A DNA stretch of 64,000 bases from Burkholderia pyrrocinia. GTDB taxonomy: Bacteria > Pseudomonadota > Gammaproteobacteria > Burkholderiales > Burkholderiaceae. The DNA is taken from NCBI RefSeq assembly GCF_022809715.1, contig NZ_CP094460.1:372001-436000 (forward strand), read 5' to 3'. The first letter of the stretch is position 1; the number at the start of each line of letters is the position of its first letter. The translations under genes and the position numbers were made by a program. Below, piece after piece: positions 1-8,081 of the stretch. The notes below the pieces were generated by a model. The model had not been told where the DNA came from and searched no databases. It saw nothing but the letters and a program-made list of their open reading frames with translations.

Positions 1-943
1 ACGACACATGCTGCGACACGGTCGCCTGGCCGCCCGTCGATTCGTGCGCACCGTTGTCGAGCAGCACGTGCGTGAGGTTGGCCGGGCCGTAGGTGCCGAG
101 CGTCGCGAACACGCCCATGCGCATCAGCGCCGCGCCGTCGCCGTCGACGGCCACCACGCGCAGGTCGGGGCGCGCGAGCGCGAGGCCGAGCGCGAGCGGC
201 GTCACGCAGCCCATCGAGCCGACCATGTACAGCTGATTCTCGCGATCGTCGATCGCGTAGAGTTCGCGGCCGCAGAAGCCGGTCGATGCGAGCACGACGG
301 TCGAGTCGACCGGCGTGTGCGCGATCACGCGCTGCAGCGCGTCGTGACGGGTCGGCCATGTGTCGGCCGACGCGGCATGCGACGACGCTTGCGCGGCGAC
401 ATGCGCGCGCGGCTTCGCCGCCGGGTTCGCCTTCAGTTCATACGGCGCGACGCTGCCTTTCTGCATCACGAGCGCGTACGGGCGGCCCGTCGCGTCCATG
501 TGCGCGATCGCGCGGTCGAGCGCCGGGCCGACCTGTTCGGGGTCGGTCGGGAACGTCTCCCACGGGATCTCCATCGTGTCGAGCATCGCGGGCGTGATCG
601 GGCCCATCAGCGCGTGCTGCGGCTCGTCGGCGACGCCAGGCTGGCCGCGCCACGTGACGATCAGCAGTTGCGGCAGGCGGAACGTCCAGGTCAGCGACGT
701 CAGCGGGCTCACCGCGTTGCCGAGCCCCGAGTTCTGCATCATCGCGATCCCGCGCTTGCCGCCGAGCGTCGCGCCCGCGATCAGCGCGACCGCGTCGCCT
801 TCGTTCGCGGCCGACACGTAGTGCAGCGTCGGGTCCTGCAGCACGTAATTGATGAACGGCGTCAGGTACGAGCAGGGCACGCCCGCGTACCAGTCGAAAC
901 CGCGTTCGCGCGCGGCCTCGACGAACTGGGCCGCTTCGATCAT
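1..943 (-). CDS. aepY: Phosphonopyruvate decarboxylase, 3' end outside window
   Basis: Thiamine-diphosphate enzyme that decarboxylates phosphonopyruvate to phosphonoacetaldehyde, the irreversible step that pulls the PEP mutase equilibrium forward. The reading frame starts at 943 and is open to the window edge, giving 314 residues of a protein usually near 380. The N-terminal half carries the pyrimidine-binding fold ([14 protein letters not shown] near residue 19, [13 protein letters not shown] near 46). The second half has the cofactor motif [18 protein letters not shown] followed by [13 protein letters not shown], typical of phosphonopyruvate and sulfopyruvate decarboxylases. Its ATG overlaps the stop of the PEP mutase gene (ATGA), so the two are translationally coupled, which favours phosphonopyruvate over sulfopyruvate as substrate. 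An aminotransferase may follow beyond the edge; none is visible here. Confidence 0.93.
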
Positions 944-2628
944 TGCGCGCCCCCGTTGCCGGCGCCCGGTTCGGACAGCGGCGTCTGGCCGTGCGCGAAG
1001 TCGCCCGCGCGGCGGAAGTCTTCGAGATCGTTGACGCCGCGCCAGTGGCCGTGCACGTACTGCACCTCGATCTTCTCGCCGGCGGCGATCAGTTCGTTGA
1101 GGAGCATCGGGATGTCGAGCGTGTCGAAATCGTCGCGCGCCTGCAGCGTCGCGAGCATCGCCTTCAGACGATCGACGCCGGCGCCGCGCACGTTCAGCAG
1201 GCCGATCCAGCGGCCGTGCGGCGTGCCTGCGGCGACGTCGCTCGATACACGTTGCAGATAAGTCTTCTGGCCGAACAGGCCGCGATCGTCCGCAGCCGAG
1301 CAGAGCGCGAAGTCGCGCACGCTCTGGTTGGTCGGCTCCGTCAGCGACGAATCGACGACGACGCTGAATTCGGCCTCGCTTTCGGCGAGGTCGCGCAGGA
1401 TGTAGCTGCGGAACAGCAGGTCGCCGTACGAGATCACGGTGTCGCCGGTCAGGCGTTCCGTCGCGCACGCGAGCGACGCGAGCTCGCCCGTCTGCGCATG
1501 GCGCTCGTTGACGACGAGCTTGATGCCCGACGTGTCGATCGCGTCGGCGCGATAGCCGCCGACCACGGTGATGTCGTTCACGCCTTGCTTCTTGAAGCCG
1601 TCGACGAGCCAGCGCAGCAGCGGCTTGCCGGCGACCGGCAGCATGACCTTGGGCTTGTCTTCGGTGACGGCTTCGAGCCCCTTGCCGCGGCTCGCGGCGA
1701 GCACGACCGCCGCATTCGACGCGCGCGACGACGACGACAGGTAGATGCGCTCGGCTGCCGAGTATTCGTCGGCGTCCTGCAGGCGGAAGATCTCGTTGAC
1801 CGACGCGACGCGATCTTCGACGTTGATCAGCGTTTCGTTCTCGTGGATCTCGCGCGCGACGGCCTGCATCGCGGAAGCCGATGCGCGGATCAGGTGGTTC
1901 GCCCAGATCACGGTGCTGATGCCGGCCTGGCGGAACACGTCGGTCGGCGTGCTGTAGTACTTGGTCGGCACGATCACGAGCGGCGCCTTGCCGCTCCATT
2001 CGCGCGCGAACTGCAGGATCTCGTCCGGGCGCGACAGCTTGCTGTGGATCAGGATCGCGTCGGCGCCGGCTTCCGCATACGCGTTCGCGCGGCGCAGCGC
2101 CTCGTCCATCCCCCAGCCCGCGATCAGTGCCTCGACGCGCGCGACGATCGAGAAGTCCGGATCGGTCTGCGAATCCTTGCCGGCCTTGATCTTGCCGCAG
2201 AACTCGTCGATCTCGGCGAGCGGCTGGCGCTCGCCGTCGATGAAGCTGTTCGTTTTCGGGAACTGCTTGTCCTCGATGCAGACGCCGGCGATGCCGCGCT
2301 GTTCGAGCTTCCTCACGAGGCGGCGCACGTTGTTGAAGTTGCCGTAGCCGGTGTCGCCGTCGAGCAGGATCGGCAGGTCGCTTGCGTCGGCCATGAATTC
2401 GAGCACGTCGACGACCTGGGTCCAGCTGGCCTCGTTGTTGTCGCGCACGCCGAACTGCGCGGAGATCGCGAGGCCCGATGCCCAGATCCCCTTGAAGCCG
2501 GCCTCGCGGACGATCCGCGCCGACAGGCCGTTGTGTGCTTCCATCAGGAATTCGAGGTCGCTGCTGACGAGCATGCGGCGCAGGCGCGCGCTGCGCGATT
2601 CGGTGAAGTTGGGTTCGCGTGCGTTCAT
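940..2628 (-). CDS. aepX: Phosphoenolpyruvate mutase fused to a nucleotidyltransferase
   Basis: A 562-residue two-domain protein. Residues about 1-300 are a PEP mutase of the isocitrate lyase superfamily: DGDTGYGN at 90-97 and the diagnostic [11 protein letters not shown] at 119-129, which separates true mutases from PEP-like lyases. It converts PEP to phosphonopyruvate, creating the C-P bond. Residues about 320-555 are an NTP-transferase domain ([14 protein letters not shown] with [15 protein letters not shown]). Such fusions are known in phosphonate pathways, where the second domain activates the phosphonate with a nucleotide, generally CTP. The ATG at 2628 overlaps the stop of the upstream nucleotidyltransferase gene (ATGA). 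Longer upstream starts would run into that gene and are rejected. The nucleotide and the exact phosphonate are inferred. Confidence 0.93.
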
Positions 2629-3392
2629 CGTGCGGCTCCTGCGGTGGTGCGTTGAATCAGGGGGAGGATTTCTTGGGTGGCGCGTGCGACGTCGTTCGGG
2701 AAGTCGATCTCGATCCACGGCGAGCCGGTGACGTCGGCGACGTCGAACGAATGGCCGCCTTCGAGCAGCAGGTCGCGCACGGCTTCTTCGTGCGGCATGT
2801 TCGCGCGGCCGCTGTCGACGTAACCCGCGACGATCGTCGCGAGGCGGCGCGCGGTGCCTTCGGTGAAGCGGAAGAAGCCGACCGATTCGCCGATCGTGTC
2901 GTAGTCGAGGTCGACCGCGAGCTGCTTGCGCAGCTCGACCGGCACGCCGTTCTTCACGCACAGCTTGACGGGTTCGTCGCCGGCCTCGAAGTCGCGGTCG
3001 ATCAGCAGGCGATCGACCGCCTTGTCGGGATCGGCGACCAGCGCGTGCAGGATGTTCTCGTCATACAGCACGTCGGCGTCCATCAGCAGCACGTCGCCGC
3101 CGCGCGTCATCGCATCGGCGACGGTATGCACGGTCAGCACGCTGCCGAGGTCGTAGCGCTCGTTCAGCACGATCTCGGCCTGACGGCCGAGGCGCTTCAA
3201 TTCCTGCTCGACCTTCCCGGCCTGGAAGCCGAGCCCGAGCACGATCTCGTCGACGCCCACGGCGTCGAGCACACGCAGATGGCGCTCGAGCAGCGAAACG
3301 TCGTCGAAGCGCAGCAGGCACTTCGGGAACTGCGCCTCGGGCGGTTGTTGCAGGCGCAAGCCGAGGCCTGCCGCAAGAATGATGGCTCGCAT
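2625..3392 (-). CDS. Stand-alone sugar/phosphocholine-type nucleotidyltransferase
   Basis: A 255-residue single-domain protein opening with [14 protein letters not shown], the nucleotide-binding signature of NTP transferases such as LicC phosphocholine cytidylyltransferase. A metal-binding [10 protein letters not shown] stretch sits near residue 105 and a C-terminal [12 protein letters not shown] motif resembles cytidylyltransferases of this type. The start at 3392 is preceded by a GGAG ribosome site; the upstream ATG at 3407 lacks one. The gene is 36 nt after the flippase-like gene and overlaps the PEP mutase start. It is the second nucleotidyltransferase of the operon. One domain may make CMP-aminoethylphosphonate and the other an activated alcohol or a second product; the sequence does not decide this. 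Confidence 0.85.
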
Positions 3393-3428
3393 GGGTTCTC
3401 CAACCAAAAAGCCGGCGGATCTGAACGA

Positions 3429-4430
3429 TCAGTCGGCGAGCGGCTGCGGCGCACGGCGCCGCTGCCAGTTTCTTTCACTGAAATGCAGATAGAGCAGGCC
3501 GGGCAGGCCGAGCGCGAGTTCGCGCGCGCGCTTCGCGAGCGACAGCGCGAGCGCCGCGTCGGGCGGCAGTCCGACCAGCGGCGCGAGCAGCAGGTAACCG
3601 CCTTCCTGCGCGCCGAGCGAGCCCGGGATCGCGAAGGCCGCGCCGCGGATCGCCTGGCCGACGCTTTCGAGCAGCAGCGCGTCGAGCCAGCTCACCGGGT
3701 GCCCGAGGAAGTGCAGCGCGAGCCACACTTCCGCGGTGCCGACGATCCAGCCGACGAGGCTCAATGCGAAGGTCTTCGCGACCCTCGCACGATCGCGGTA
3801 CAGCGCACCGACCGCGTCGTCGATCGCGTCGGCGCGGGTCGCGAGCGATGACCAGTCGCGCGGGCCCAGCAGCTTCGACGCGAGGCGCAGGCCGCGGCCG
3901 AACAGCCCGCGCCGCTGCGCCACGTAGAACAGCGCGGCGAGCGCGCCGAGCACGCCGGTGGCGATCAGCGCGGGCGTGCGCAGGTGCGCGACCGATTCGT
4001 GCGTCGCATACAGGCTGAACGCGGCGATGCCGATCAGCGCGAACGCCATCTGCGCGAGCGCCTGCATCGTCGTGCCGACGGTGACGGCGGCCGCCGCGTC
4101 GGCCATCCGCGTGCCGCGCTGCGCGAGGTGGCGCACCATCAGCACGGGGCCGCCGATCTGCCCGGCGGGCAGCAGGCTGTTGACCGATTCGCCGACCCAG
4201 CGCGCGCGCAGCGCGTTGCCGAGCTCGGCGCCCGGCTGGCCGCGGCGGAACATCACGGAGATCGCGATCGCGTCGATCACGAGCGGCACGACGTGAAACG
4301 CCGCGACGAGCGCGAGGCCCCAGCCGGCCGCGAGGAACGTCGACGCGACCGCGCCGACGCCCTGCCATGCAAGGAGTGCGACGAAGAGTGCGGTCCCGAG
4401 GGACAGCAGGATCAGGCCGGCGCGTGTCAT
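3429..4430 (-). CDS. Flippase-like integral membrane protein (LPG synthase TM / HpnL-type)
   Basis: A 333-residue polytopic membrane protein starting with a hydrophobic helix (LILLSLGTALFVALLAW). It contains the family hallmarks of the lysylphosphatidylglycerol synthase transmembrane (AglD/HpnL) group: RARWVGESVNSLLPAGQIGGP near residue 73 and AFAIPGSLGAQEGGY near 260. Members of this fold move or help move lipids across membranes. Inside an operon with a CDP-alcohol phosphotransferase and phosphonate genes, translocation of a newly made phosphonolipid is the natural role, but this is inference. The start at 4430 gives an ATGA overlap with the oxygenase stop. The longer frame reaching 4526 lies inside the oxygenase gene and was not used. 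Confidence 0.85.
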   Translation of the reverse strand: MTRAGLILLSLGTALFVALLAWQGVGAVASTFLAAGWGLALVAAFHVVPLVIDAIAISVMFRRGQPGAELGNALRARWVGESVNSLLPAGQIGGPVLMVRHLAQRGTRMADAAAAVTVGTTMQALAQMAFALIGIAAFSLYATHESVAHLRTPALIATGVLGALAALFYVAQRRGLFGRGLRLASKLLGPRDWSSLATRADAIDDAVGALYRDRARVAKTFALSLVGWIVGTAEVWLALHFLGHPVSWLDALLLESVGQAIRGAAFAIPGSLGAQEGGYLLLAPLVGLPPDAALALSLAKRARELALGLPGLLYLHFSERNWQRRRAPQPLAD

Positions 4431-5236
4431 GACCCGGCCGTGCGCCGCGTGGCCAGTTGCTTGAACACCTGGCGGAAACCGAAATACGCGATCGCGTCCT
4501 TCATGTTCGAGATGAAGCGCTTCCACGGCCGCATGCCGGGGTTCGTCACGTATTCGAAAGTCAGCGACACGCGCATCTCGTTCTGGCCGAGCGGCGTGAT
4601 GCGGTGGCGCAGCTTGTCGCCGTCGAACAGCACGATGCCGCCGTCGGCGATCTGCACGGAGCCCGGTTCGTCGGGCACGTCAGGGTTGCGCGTGTGCAGC
4701 TCGTAGTCGAGGCGGCACGACGATTCGTCGATCACGCCGATCAGCAGCGTGTAGCGGCGGCCGTCATAGTACGACGTGTCGTAGTGCCAGCCGATGTGGT
4801 CGCCGGGCTTCGTGTAGTAATACAGCGCGTACGCATGCGGATCGTCGTCCGGCGACAGCATCAGCTTGTCGCCCGTGAGCTTCTCGAGGAAGCCGATCAG
4901 CGCCTTCGAACGATATAGCTCGGCGATGTACGGCGCCTGCTCGTCGATCGTATGGCGGCTCACGCTGCCGCCCTGCTTGTGGCCGGGCAGGTAATTGCGG
5001 TTCAGGCCGGCCTGCATCGCGCGGGCGGCGGCCGCGAGCTTCGCGTGCGCGTCGGCCGGCAGGAAGGCGTCGAGGTACAGGAACGACCCCTGGCGCGTGT
5101 AGTCGCCGCGCAGGCGGTCGAGGTCGAGACGGCCGACGCAGTCGGCCACGGTGCGATCGGGGTCGGACGCGGCCGCGCGCGCAGGCGCGGGGCGTGCCGG
5201 GCTCAGCACGGAGTCGTCGCGCGTGCTCGGAGTCAT
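4427..5236 (-). CDS. 2-oxoglutarate/Fe(II)-dependent oxygenase
   Basis: A 269-residue soluble protein with the double-stranded beta-helix iron site: His151 and Asp153 in IGWHYDTSYYDGRRY, His211 in DKLRHRITPLG, and Arg222 positioned to bind 2-oxoglutarate. An SPDDDPHAYALYYYTKPGDH segment precedes the HxD motif. Enzymes of this class hydroxylate or halogenate unactivated carbons; no halogenase-type loss of the Asp is seen, so hydroxylation is expected. The gene overlaps both neighbours by four bases (ATGA), so its substrate is most likely a phosphonate intermediate, the phosphonate headgroup or the finished lipid. The first 30 residues are Ala/Pro-rich and look disordered. Confidence 0.88.
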   Translation of the reverse strand: MTPSTRDDSVLSPARPAPARAAASDPDRTVADCVGRLDLDRLRGDYTRQGSFLYLDAFLPADAHAKLAAAARAMQAGLNRNYLPGHKQGGSVSRHTIDEQAPYIAELYRSKALIGFLEKLTGDKLMLSPDDDPHAYALYYYTKPGDHIGWHYDTSYYDGRRYTLLIGVIDESSCRLDYELHTRNPDVPDEPGSVQIADGGIVLFDGDKLRHRITPLGQNEMRVSLTFEYVTNPGMRPWKRFISNMKDAIAYFGFRQVFKQLATRRTAGS

Positions 5237-5913
5237 TTGGAAGCCTGGATTTCGGTTGAATTCTGCGGGAGGTTGCCGCGCCGGACGATGCGCCACCAGT
5301 CGATCACGACCCATGCGGCGAACAGCGGGGCGCCGATCGACGCCGCGAGCAGGAACGGCTCGACGCCGTCGACGAGCGTCACGATCGGCAGCAGGTACAG
5401 CACGTCTTCGGTTTCGAAGCCGCCGGCGAATGCCTGTTTGGTGCCGGCCTTGCCGGCGATCGATTCGATCCGCATGCGCAGGAAGAAGATCAGCGCGACG
5501 GCCGCGCCGGCCACCGCGCCGAGCAGCACAGGCGACGCGGCCATCCGGCCGCCCTGGGCGACGATGCCGAGGCCCATGCTGACGAACAGCGCGATCGTCA
5601 CGAGCGCATCGGCCGCGAGGTCGTAAAAGTGACCGATCTTGCTGGACTTGCCGCTGATGCGCGCGAGCTCGCCGTCGGTGTGGTCGACGAAGTTCGACAG
5701 CACGATCAGGAACGCGCCTGCGTTGCTCCAGCCGAAGCCGCCGTGCGCGAGGCACCAGGCGCCGGCGAGGCCAATCATCAGACGAAGGGTGGTGAGGTGA
5801 TTCGGGGTGACCGGCGTATCGACAAGCGGTCGGACGAGCGAGCGCGCGAGCCGCGCATCCCAGGTGCGTGGCAGGGGGGGCTCGGATCGTGTGGCGGTTT
5901 TTCTTTGGTCCAT
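5233..5913 (-). CDS. CDP-alcohol phosphatidyltransferase
   Basis: A 226-residue membrane enzyme with the complete CDP-alcohol phosphotransferase signature at residues 77-102 (D77, D80-G81, A84-R85, G94, D98, D102). These residues bind the CDP-linked donor and two metal ions. Several hydrophobic helices surround it (SNAGAFLIVLSNF, LLGAVAGAAVALIFF, LFAAWVVIDWW). The family transfers a phospho-alcohol from a CDP carrier to another alcohol. Here the donor is predicted to be CMP-phosphonate and the acceptor diacylglycerol or a similar lipid. It is the first gene of the operon, directly behind an AT-rich promoter, and its stop overlaps the oxygenase start. The real substrate pair is unknown. Confidence 0.9.
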   Translation of the reverse strand: MDQRKTATRSEPPLPRTWDARLARSLVRPLVDTPVTPNHLTTLRLMIGLAGAWCLAHGGFGWSNAGAFLIVLSNFVDHTDGELARISGKSSKIGHFYDLAADALVTIALFVSMGLGIVAQGGRMAASPVLLGAVAGAAVALIFFLRMRIESIAGKAGTKQAFAGGFETEDVLYLLPIVTLVDGVEPFLLAASIGAPLFAAWVVIDWWRIVRRGNLPQNSTEIQASK

Positions 5914-5931
5914 CGGCGAAATATATACGGA

Positions 5932-5961
5932 ATTGTAATTTGTTGCTTTTTATTCGATCAA
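5932..5961 (-). promoter_or_regulatory. Candidate sigma70 promoter of the phosphonate operon
   Basis: On the minus strand TTGATC (5956-5961) and TACAAT (5932-5937) are separated by 18 bp, in a strongly AT-rich pocket unlike the surrounding GC-rich DNA. Transcription would start near 5925, about a dozen bases before the first ATG at 5913. No strong ribosome site is visible between. Confidence 0.55.
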
Positions 5962-6566: not shown

Positions 6567-8081
6567 ATGTCTTCATCACGCATCCTCGCTCCCGCCCTGC
6601 GTTCGCTCGTCCGCACCGCCGACGAAGCCGCCGCGCTGATCCGTCCCGGCATGACCGTCGCCATGAGCGGCTTCACCGGGTCGGGCTATCCGAAGGCCGT
6701 GCCGGCCGCGCTTGCCGCCCACATCGACGCGGCGCACGCGCGCGGCGAGGACTTCCGGATCAACGTGCTGACGGGCGCATCGACCGCGCCGGAACTCGAC
6801 GGCGCGCTCGCCCGCACCAACGGCATCTCGATGCGCCTGCCGTACCAGTCCGACCCGACGCTGCGCGACAAGATCAACAGCGGCGAAGTCGACTACCAGG
6901 ACGTCCACCTGAGCCACGTCGCGCAATACGCATGGTTCGGGCTGTACGGCGATCTCGACGTCGCGATCGTCGAAGTCGCGGGCATCCGCGAGGACGGGCT
7001 GCTGATTCCGTCCGCATCGATCGGCAACAACAAGACGTGGCTCGAACGCGCGAAGCACGTGATCCTCGAGGTCAACTCGCGCCAGCCGCTCGGCCTCGAC
7101 GGGATGCACGACGTCTACTACGGCACCGCGCTGCCGCCGCATCGCAAGCCGATTCCGCTGACGAAGAGCGACGACCGGATCGGCGAGCCGTACCTGCGCT
7201 GCCCGGCCGACAAGATCGTCGCGATCGTCGAGACCGACGCGCCCGATCGCAGCAACGCGTTCTCCGCGCCGGACGAGACGTCGAAGCAGATCGCGCTGCA
7301 GCTGATCGACTTCCTGCGCCACGAAGTGAAGCGCGGCCGCCTGCCGGAGAACCTGCTGCCGCTGCAGTCGGGCGTCGGCAACATCACGAATGCGGTGCTC
7401 GCGGAACTCAGCTCGGCCGGCTTCTCGAACCTGACCGCGTACACCGAAGTGATTCAGGACGCCATGCTCGACCTGCTCGACGACGGCACGCTGAGCTTCG
7501 CGTCGGCTACCGCGCTGTCGCTGAGCCCGGCCGCCGTGCAGCGCTTCGCCGACGAGATCGCGACGTTCCGCGAGAAGATCGTGCTGCGCCCGCAGGAGAT
7601 CAGCAACCATCCGGAACTCGTGCGCCGCCTCGGCTGCATCGCGATGAACGGGATGATCGAGGCCGACATCTACGGCAACGTGAACTCGACGCACGTGATG
7701 GGCACGAAGATCCAGAACGGCATCGGCGGCTCGGGCGACTTCGCGCGCAACGGCTACCTGTCGTGCTTCATGTCGGCGAGTACCGCGAAGGGCGGCGCGA
7801 TCTCGCGGATCGTGCCGATGGCGAGCCACGTCGACCATACCGAGCACGACGTCGCGGTGGTCGTCACCGAGCAGGGCCTCGCGGACCTGCGCGGCCTGTC
7901 GCCGAAGCAGCGCGCGAGCAAGATCATCGCGACCTGCGCTCACCCCGATTACCGGCCGATGCTCGAGGACTACTTCGAGCGAGCGTCGCGCGAAAGCTTC
8001 GGCAAGCACACGCCGCACCTGCTCGCCGAGGCGCTGTCGTGGCACGAGCGCTACGTGCGCACGGGAACGATGAAGGCCTGA
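6567..8081 (+). CDS. Acetyl-CoA hydrolase / succinyl-CoA:acetate CoA-transferase family protein
   Basis: A 504-residue class I CoA-transferase. The oxyanion-loop region QSGVGNITNAV (268-278) is followed by the catalytic glutamate Glu294 in AYTEVIQDAMLDL, the same arrangement as AarC-type succinyl-CoA:acetate CoA-transferases. The C-terminal block GGSGDFARNGYLS near 390 is also conserved. It would move CoA between acetate and succinyl-CoA (or propionyl-CoA) in the cytoplasm, in acetate/propionate handling. The start at 6567 matches the family N-terminus; the frame is open further upstream but has no homologous content. It is a single-gene unit followed by two hairpins. Hydrolase and transferase activity cannot be separated by sequence alone. 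Confidence 0.9.
   Translation: MSSSRILAPALRSLVRTADEAAALIRPGMTVAMSGFTGSGYPKAVPAALAAHIDAAHARGEDFRINVLTGASTAPELDGALARTNGISMRLPYQSDPTLRDKINSGEVDYQDVHLSHVAQYAWFGLYGDLDVAIVEVAGIREDGLLIPSASIGNNKTWLERAKHVILEVNSRQPLGLDGMHDVYYGTALPPHRKPIPLTKSDDRIGEPYLRCPADKIVAIVETDAPDRSNAFSAPDETSKQIALQLIDFLRHEVKRGRLPENLLPLQSGVGNITNAVLAELSSAGFSNLTAYTEVIQDAMLDLLDDGTLSFASATALSLSPAAVQRFADEIATFREKIVLRPQEISNHPELVRRLGCIAMNGMIEADIYGNVNSTHVMGTKIQNGIGGSGDFARNGYLSCFMSASTAKGGAISRIVPMASHVDHTEHDVAVVVTEQGLADLRGLSPKQRASKIIATCAHPDYRPMLEDYFERASRESFGKHTPHLLAEALSWHERYVRTGTMKA

Follow-up and report, generated by a model that had tools for sequence, protein, structure and literature searches.

A Burkholderia phosphonate operon predicted to attach an aminoethylphosphonate head group to an extended hopanoid

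The analysis of a 64,000-nucleotide stretch of Burkholderia pyrrocinia DNA (contig NZ_CP094460.1, positions 372,001 to 436,000; hereafter the window), which belongs to a 7.69-Mb genome in three contigs and comes from the second of these (3.0 Mb), revealed an operon of seven minus-strand genes, designated CDPAP, OXY, FLIP, NTP, PEPM, PPD and AEPT. Their protein families and the surroundings of their relatives suggest that the operon probably attaches a 2-aminoethylphosphonate (AEP) head group to an extended hopanoid, giving a phosphonohopanoid that is probably hydroxylated. A phosphonolipid had been named as the product in the original prediction, made from the letters of the window; the reading of a lipid with a carbon-phosphorus (C-P) bond is kept, while the kind of lipid is probably wrong, linkage favouring a hopanoid. 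A hopanoid rather than diacylglycerol is the most likely acceptor on two grounds: in other Pseudomonadota and some Cyanobacteria the operon has relatives embedded in hopanoid clusters, and FLIP is an HpnL-family protein. On balance, it also appears that Burkholderia, many other Pseudomonadota, some Cyanobacteria and perhaps three further phyla make phosphonohopanoids, in which AEP or hydroxy-AEP would be carried on a bacteriohopanepolyol through a C-P-O ester.

Hopanoid genes around relatives of the operon

A scan of 84,980 species genomes gave 439 relatives, and 80 loci were retained from these. Hopanoid genes in these loci (HpnA, B, E, G, H, I, J, K, N, R and squalene-hopene cyclase, SHC) were tallied by tblastn at 1e-15, and their identities were checked by NCBIfam for representative loci. 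Three pairs of labels denote the same records (L100/L134, L101/L106 and L102/L112), the first of each pair standing outside the tally, and a B12 radical-SAM gene labelled 'HpnP?', which passed no NCBIfam cut-off, was excluded. At least one hopanoid gene was present in 18/18 loci of non-Burkholderiaceae Pseudomonadota, three of which, on short contigs, hold HpnA alone (two at 60-63% identity, the third at 55% over a fragment), as well as in 3/14 loci of Cyanobacteria, 1/9 of Nitrospirota/Nitrospinota and 2/2 of Rokubacteria. None of the 37 Burkholderiaceae loci held one, and this zero also served to control for promiscuous matching within the tally.

A class sample of 369 genomes, including that of the window, gave an OXY match in six genomes outside Burkholderiaceae, and in four of these the block lies amid hopanoid genes. 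NCBIfam recognised HpnH (552 bits), HpnA (488 and 519 bits), HpnN (1000 bits) and Dxs near the block, HpnG (153 bits) and squalene synthase (107 bits) remaining under their cut-offs. The locus L101 (the L106 record) displays a co-directional run of squalene synthase, HpnG, CDPAP, HpnA, OXY, NTP, PEPM, PPD and AEPT, the first two again below cut-off. HpnR (897 bits) is located 0.8 kb past AEPT in Nitrococcus mobilis (L138), and HpnJ-HpnK-HpnI stands directly before CDPAP in Nostoc (L111). Where Cyanobacteria have PepM apart from OXY, HpnA-HpnH is no more than about 6 kb from the PepM block in three of six genomes. Pseudomonadota and Cyanobacteria are thus the groups in which hopanoid genes were observed next to a true PepM. 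A quick tree, in which ancestral linkage and repeated gain are not separable, requires five changes for the linked state, at least four of them forced. Two metagenome bins titled Klebsiella pneumoniae (L126, L143) also hold a hopanoid-phosphonate block; the tree places them among uncultured gammaproteobacteria, and they are probably mislabelled.

Among 21 genomes chosen from the 80 loci, HpnH was found in 20 and a PepM-like fusion in 19, the 1.5-Mb bin G662 missing both. EDKxxxxxNS, the motif by which PepM is defined (PMC6697681), occurs in 12 of the 19 fusions and EDN.....CS in five, G670 and G671 not being among those checked. In Nitrospinota, HpnH lies 7 kb from OXY-NTP-CDPAP, with an EDK-type PepM elsewhere in the genome. 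In Rokubacteria, SHC is present in both loci (tblastn, 47% identity) and is followed by HpnH and HpnA in one genome (L203); the HpnN-like protein of L164 scores 69 of 752 bits, far under the cut-off.

Co-occurrence within the family points the same way. In a 249-genome sample of Burkholderiaceae, OXY was found in 145 genomes and PEPM in 141 (both in 140, OXY only in five, PEPM only in one, neither in 103). HpnH is present in 145/145 OXY-positive genomes as compared to 29/104 OXY-negative ones, 75 having neither; by genus, the corresponding figures are 11/11 and 1/14 (p 2.7e-6). The only PEPM-positive genome devoid of HpnH, G255, has a decayed operon. The OXY-HpnH distance, measured for g11 and g8 among other family genera, is 13.5-17.8 kb in 19 of the 20 g11 genomes with HpnH position given (26 being OXY-positive); in g8 the two are likewise linked in two of four genomes, the distances in both genera spanning 13-18 kb, and are on different contigs in the other two. 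L189-L191 each display the joined island with SHC, HpnA, HpnB, HpnG and HpnN. In G204 the tblastn order is CDPAP, OXY, FLIP, NTP, PEPM, PPD, AEPT and Dxs, then HpnN (other strand), IspH, HpnH, HpnA and HpnB, and further on the other strand HpnG, SHC, HpnE and HpnD; its HpnA, SHC, HpnE, HpnD and Dxs were also matched by NCBIfam. The genome of the window itself encodes two SHC enzymes along with HpnH, HpnB, HpnI and HpnJ. The possibility that CDPAP is a generic hopanoid CDP-alcohol enzyme was ruled out, its subfamily being absent from 29/29 HpnH-positive, OXY-negative genomes (best 33.7 bits), whereas it scored at least 323 bits in 4/4 OXY-positive genomes in the same search.

Operon layout and predicted pathway

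The six genes which the original prediction had placed on one strand all lie on the minus strand (Table 1), and the families it had claimed were confirmed with Pfam and NCBIfam. The ATGA overlaps it described at the CDPAP/OXY, OXY/FLIP, NTP/PEPM and PEPM/PPD junctions, as well as the 36-nt gap between FLIP and NTP, were all read in the sequence. The operon outruns the left edge of the window, beyond which a phosphonate aminotransferase gene was to be sought; AEPT, found there as the seventh gene and wholly outside the window, meets PPD by a one-base overlap (TGATG). Near the operon end, two terminator-like sites were observed as against 0.6 expected in shuffles; the promoter-like site above CDPAP, one observed against 0.3 expected, is no evidence of function. 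A plus-strand open reading frame (window 6576-8081) is divergent from the operon, with about 0.65 kb between them, and judged by eye is presumably a protein of the acetyl-CoA hydrolase/transferase type.

Table 1. Genes of the operon and candidate sites at its two ends (window positions; L007 denotes a locus record)
Feature	Description	Position	Strand	Basis
CDPAP	CDP-alcohol phosphotransferase, 226 aa	5233..5913	-	Pfam/NCBIfam family match
OXY	Fe(II)/2-oxoglutarate oxygenase, 269 aa	4427..5236	-	HxD...H triad H151/D153/H211
FLIP	Membrane protein of the HpnL family, 333 aa; candidate lipid flippase	3429..4430	-	TIGR03476
NTP	Stand-alone MobA-like nucleotidyltransferase, 255 aa, PntC-like	2625..3392	-	PF12804, 48 bits
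PEPM	PEP mutase fused to second MobA-like nucleotidyltransferase domain, 562 aa	940..2628	-	TIGR02320
PPD	Phosphonopyruvate decarboxylase, 393 aa	1..943 in window, on to -238	-	TIGR03297
AEPT	2-AEP transaminase, 354 aa	-1302..-238 (L007:12698-13762)	-	TIGR03301
Terminator-like hairpin	Seven pairs and T tail, 3' of AEPT	L007:12656-12673
Possible promoter	Sigma-70-like, directly upstream of CDPAP	5932..5961	-	Weak, 9 of 12

The block is widely conserved. The PepM fusion is present in 64/65 Burkholderia genomes, with full-length matches 86-99% identical, and the search for the same block in related genomes, which had also been proposed, recovered the full set of seven, with its order unchanged, in 20/20 Burkholderia loci, read out of 64 available and picked with a bias to divergent ones. 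These two counts rule out chance neighbourhood of the genes. Among the 20 loci, G025 (L055) has its genes in pieces with frame breaks. G058 has one stop inside PEPM. G016, the sole Burkholderia genome of the 65 without the fusion, gave no TIGR02320 match above cut-off, while HpnH is present there.

Across ten other genera of the family the seven genes occur together in 17/20 loci read, and the remaining three, all from the Paraburkholderia-like genus g20, hold CDPAP-OXY-FLIP-NTP alone. The pathway is split in g20, this lipid half being separate from PEPM-PPD-AEPT: the six g20 PEPM loci read have PEPM together with PPD, which is broken in two in G143, as well as AEPT in five of six, and no lipid half. 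Both halves are nevertheless found in 22 of the 26 OXY-positive g20 genomes, and their frequent co-retention in spite of being unlinked argues that they serve one product. It was likewise on account of the PepM found elsewhere in these 22 genomes that another head-group source replacing PepM in g20 was mostly rejected. In G194 (g20) the lipid module is decayed and nothing passed the TIGR02320 cut-off. L088 (G194), L089 (G255), L090 (G220) and L055 (G025) hold operon copies that are decaying or broken in frame, several genes being reduced to fragments.

The first three steps of the proposed pathway are assigned from curated family matches. PEPM (411.2 bits against TIGR02320, cut-off 319.55) would convert phosphoenolpyruvate (PEP) to phosphonopyruvate, PPD (482 bits against TIGR03297, cut-off 312.5) would decarboxylate this to phosphonoacetaldehyde, and AEPT (403.5 bits against TIGR03301, cut-off 360.8) would yield AEP. 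The scores of PEPM and PPD uphold the claim that a mutase and a decarboxylase set up the C-P bond; the eleven-letter mutase motif named in that claim is present, and a ten-letter motif in PEPM fits EDKxxxxxNS. AEPT does not reach the cut-off of the narrower PhnW model TIGR02326 (267.7 bits, cut-off 400.8). Since AEPT, the transaminase wanted in the original prediction, is present, AEP is supported as the phosphonate likely to be made by the operon.

Activation of the product by two nucleotidyltransferase domains had also been claimed. Nucleotidyl activation as such is supported, and the conversion of AEP to its cytidine monophosphate derivative (CMP-AEP) is most likely carried out mainly by NTP, since NTP keeps GxGxR and resembles PntC, whereas the fused domain has lost the canonical arginine. 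The closest solved relative of NTP is PntC (6pd1, 43.6 bits). GxGxR is kept in at least 118/121 NTP homologues, in which the T/S position of the PntC motif GxG(T/S)R...PK is mostly L or R, and the window NTP contains FPK. The fused domain is closest to LicC (1jyk, 56.3 bits) among solved structures; an alignment of 93 PepM fusions, reduced to 92 by exclusion of the decayed copy L089, displays loss of the canonical arginine in 92/92, retention of PK, and a substitute arginine three residues earlier that is kept in [STAG]-R-G. Both homologue sets include some duplicate records. In Treponema PntC, alanine in place of the canonical arginine leaves less than 10% of the activity (PMC6697681). The fused domain may therefore be altered, act on another substrate, or be a helper which pulls the unfavourable mutase reaction.

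The claim of an Fe/2-oxoglutarate oxygenase is borne out by family for OXY, and its HxD triad indicates a hydroxylase-type enzyme rather than a halogenase. The iron site of HalD/BesD halogenases has no carboxylate and carries HxG instead of HxD. In contrast, the aspartate D153 of OXY is invariant in 32/32 relatives, and HxD is found in 111/113 matches to an OXY pattern that does not require the aspartate, the other two being one unrelated-looking string. OXY scores only 28 bits against the BesD equivalog NF042920 (cut-off 450), and a HalD/BesD halogenase was rejected on the conserved triad. Its retained aspartate sets OXY, as a hydroxylase-type enzyme, apart from the halogenases of the HalD/BesD family (7u6h, 7u6i, 6nie, 7jsd), in which 7jsd bears the title of a hydroxylase homologue of BesD. 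Many OXY relatives (P0001-P0120) are labelled 'HalD/BesD family halogenase' in public sources despite HxD, which is likely to be a systematic misannotation. Two remote OXY homologues, L104 (G350) and L105 (G545), are 32-34% identical and possibly act on a different substrate.

The last steps would take place at the membrane. The original prediction of a CDP-alcohol phosphotransferase and a flippase-like protein is supported at the level of family, as a membrane enzyme and an HpnL-family member, respectively. CDPAP has the fold of CDP-alcohol phosphotransferases and their motif, D-x2-D-G-x2-A-R-x8-G-x3-D-x3-D; it is suggested by genomic linkage to take the phosphonate off CMP and join it to a bacteriohopanepolyol hydroxyl. 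OXY would hydroxylate the head group, before or after activation, or the acceptor. FLIP, with 373.3 bits against the HpnL model TIGR03476 (cut-off 195.65), may move the product, a phosphorus-bearing and probably zwitterionic hopanoid, across the membrane. The window genome encodes three HpnL proteins, namely FLIP, one by HpnI, and one by HpnI, HpnJ and an HpnK-like gene, and the HpnL-like proteins of the distant loci L102, L103 and L138 remain under the TIGR03476 cut-off (140-154 bits). The function of HpnL is described as not established in the available text of a 2025 hopanoid survey (PMC12583986).

Acceptor, rival readings and significance

The evidence for the acceptor is linkage and nesting, and several observations weigh against a hopanoid. 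The Burkholderia operon itself is devoid of hopanoid neighbours, HpnH being 1.6 Mb away on the same replicon, and 11/14 cyanobacterial loci have no counted hopanoid gene. The co-occurrence counts come from genomes related by descent and so are not independent of one another, part of the signal being due to small genomes in which both are missing, and the nearest folds of CDPAP, which use inositol phosphates or CDP-lipids, do not fix the direction in which it would transfer. In three near-complete g20 genomes (G125, G258 and G277; L085, L086 and L087) the lipid half is intact without a TIGR02320 match above cut-off, and there it may take a different head group or one brought in from outside. 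L104 and L105, from distant gammaproteobacteria, carry OXY apart from its partners, no other operon gene being matched within 9 kb. The motif EDN.....CS replaces that of PepM in 5/5 fusions checked from four Nitrospirota and one Rokubacteria (G657, G658, G660, G661, G663), and two EDN-type fusions that were scored reach 277 and 286 bits, below the PEP mutase cut-off of 320. Finally, no phosphonohopanoid was found in the open-licence literature searched.

Due to the EDN motif and these scores, a C-P product is not established for Nitrospirota and Rokubacteria, and the EDN-type fusion would be either a variant PEP mutase or an enzyme of another reaction. The odds of a hopanoid acceptor are unchanged by this finding, as it is Pseudomonadota and Cyanobacteria that supply the main evidence of linkage. 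The EDN-type fusions of L198-L201 (Nitrospirota) and L164/L203 (Rokubacteria) are 34-37% identical to the window PEPM, and in L199 and L200 they stand beside NTP, AEPT and PPD homologues. Five Nitrospirota OXY loci (L128, L130, L145, L168, L176) hold no NTP, CDPAP or PEPM; four of their genomes have an EDN-type fusion elsewhere and in the fifth none was found.

The point at which OXY acts allows a second reading, tentative but deserving attention, in which OXY hydroxylates the hopanoid side chain, for instance to give a pentol-type acceptor, and not AEP or its CMP derivative. Where the pathway is split, OXY stays beside CDPAP in the lipid module and away from the AEP genes. In 8/9 Nitrospirota/Nitrospinota loci, some of them short, OXY occurs without its partners, which speaks for this reading and also counts among the points against the pathway as a whole; HpnH was found in 5/6 such genomes tested (the miss being the bin G662), and four of these genomes have only a PepM-like fusion without EDKxxxxxNS. 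Against it, the solved structures nearest to OXY are those of amino-acid enzymes and contain lysine or ornithine, so that an amino-phosphonate, being small, would be a fitting substrate.

A classical phosphonolipid, made by transfer of CMP-AEP or CMP-hydroxy-AEP to diacylglycerol or a similar glycerolipid, is unlikely. The hopanoid neighbours could in that case reflect co-regulation of two membrane lipids, a point that also bears on the preferred acceptor. However, CDPAP is placed between hopanoid genes in many loci, once co-directionally with HpnG and HpnA; OXY was never found without HpnH among the 145 OXY-positive family genomes; and the proposed flippase is of the HpnL family.

An inverse transfer, in which one nucleotidyltransferase makes a CDP-hopanoid from a hopanoid phosphate and CDPAP moves the hopanoid to the hydroxyl of 1-hydroxy-AEP, leaving the phosphonate free, appears improbable. 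It would give OXY a role in making the acceptor hydroxyl; the nearest matches to CDPAP and NTP are the two IPCT-DIPPS domains and PIPS/AIPS, whose acceptors carry a phosphate, and HpnG is named a phosphorylase. A soluble MobA-like enzyme would, however, have to handle a very hydrophobic phosphate, and among solved structures NTP is nearest in sequence to PntC, an AEP cytidylyltransferase. A soluble phosphonate or phosphonoglycan is very unlikely to be the product, for although nucleotidyl activation also occurs with soluble phosphonates (Fom1) and has been put forward for glycans (PMC6697681), the seven genes include no LicD or glycosyltransferase family match, two of them encode lipid-type membrane proteins, and the linkage is to hopanoid genes.

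If the phosphonohopanoid reading is true, it names the acceptor of a pathway found in nearly all Burkholderia genomes examined and adds a new class of phosphorus-bearing hopanoids, with a dedicated CDP-alcohol phosphotransferase and a phospholipid-like zwitterionic head. It would also give HpnL a function, testable as a flippase, and point to a source of C-P compounds in soil and water. Hopanoids serve as biomarkers and are linked to membrane robustness. To our knowledge, standard bacteriohopanepolyol methods are not aimed at phosphorus-bearing zwitterions and could miss them, which could explain why a phosphonohopanoid is unreported so far; the main text of the 2025 hopanoid survey, as available, has no word beginning with 'phosphon' (PMC12583986).

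Comparison with known systems

The hopanoid head-group assembly HpnI-HpnK-HpnJ-HpnL resembles the operon in having an HpnL-family protein beside head-group enzymes, and HpnI/J/K adjoin the phosphonate block in 3/14 cyanobacterial loci. This assembly adds a sugar-derived group, giving bacteriohopanetetrol glucosamine or cyclitol ether, and thus differs from the operon in being devoid of C-P chemistry. The pair of a nucleotidyltransferase and a CDP-alcohol phosphotransferase is closely matched in sequence and fold by IPCT-DIPPS of Archaeoglobus (4mnd) and AF2299, which is a single fused chain with about 16-21% identity to the operon proteins and uses inositol phosphates as substrates.

The phosphonate half is best compared to the Pnt pathway of Treponema denticola and Atopobium rimae, which shares PepM, Ppd, AEPT and activation of AEP dependent on cytidine triphosphate (PMC6697681). 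The Pnt clusters likewise have PepM-fused plus separate nucleotidyltransferases; they point to glycans, with LicD and glycosyltransferases (PMC6697681), whereas the operon described here has CDPAP, the HpnL-family FLIP and OXY. According to the available part of the same source, bacterial phosphonate genes are mostly predicted to decorate cell surfaces, the later steps and acceptors being mostly unknown (PMC6697681). Flavophos, another Burkholderia phosphonate, is made by a different cluster (PMC12871164).

A 2021 survey of Acetobacteraceae noted terpenoid genes near a PEP mutase gene and spoke of an 'undiscovered terpene-phosphonate' (PMC8776678). Terpenoid genes close to a mutase gene are the point in common, the part of the survey available giving no specific pathway, acceptor or gene set (PMC8776678). 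A hydroxylated phosphonolipid head in Burkholderia is mentioned in a 2025 paper, which cites Yu et al. for it (PMC12723261). A 2018 paper on a lichen Nostoc, following Yu et al. 2013, draws a predicted phosphonolipid cluster beside a Burkholderia homologue (PMC5987646); its legend lists a CDP-alcohol phosphatidyltransferase, a 2OG-Fe(II) enzyme, an NTP transferase, pepM, ppd, AEPT and an hpnL label, as here. That paper stops at the phosphonolipid, its main text as available being without any word beginning with hopanoid or hopene (PMC5987646). The cluster is therefore already in print as a predicted phosphonolipid cluster, and the probable hopanoid acceptor is the new part.

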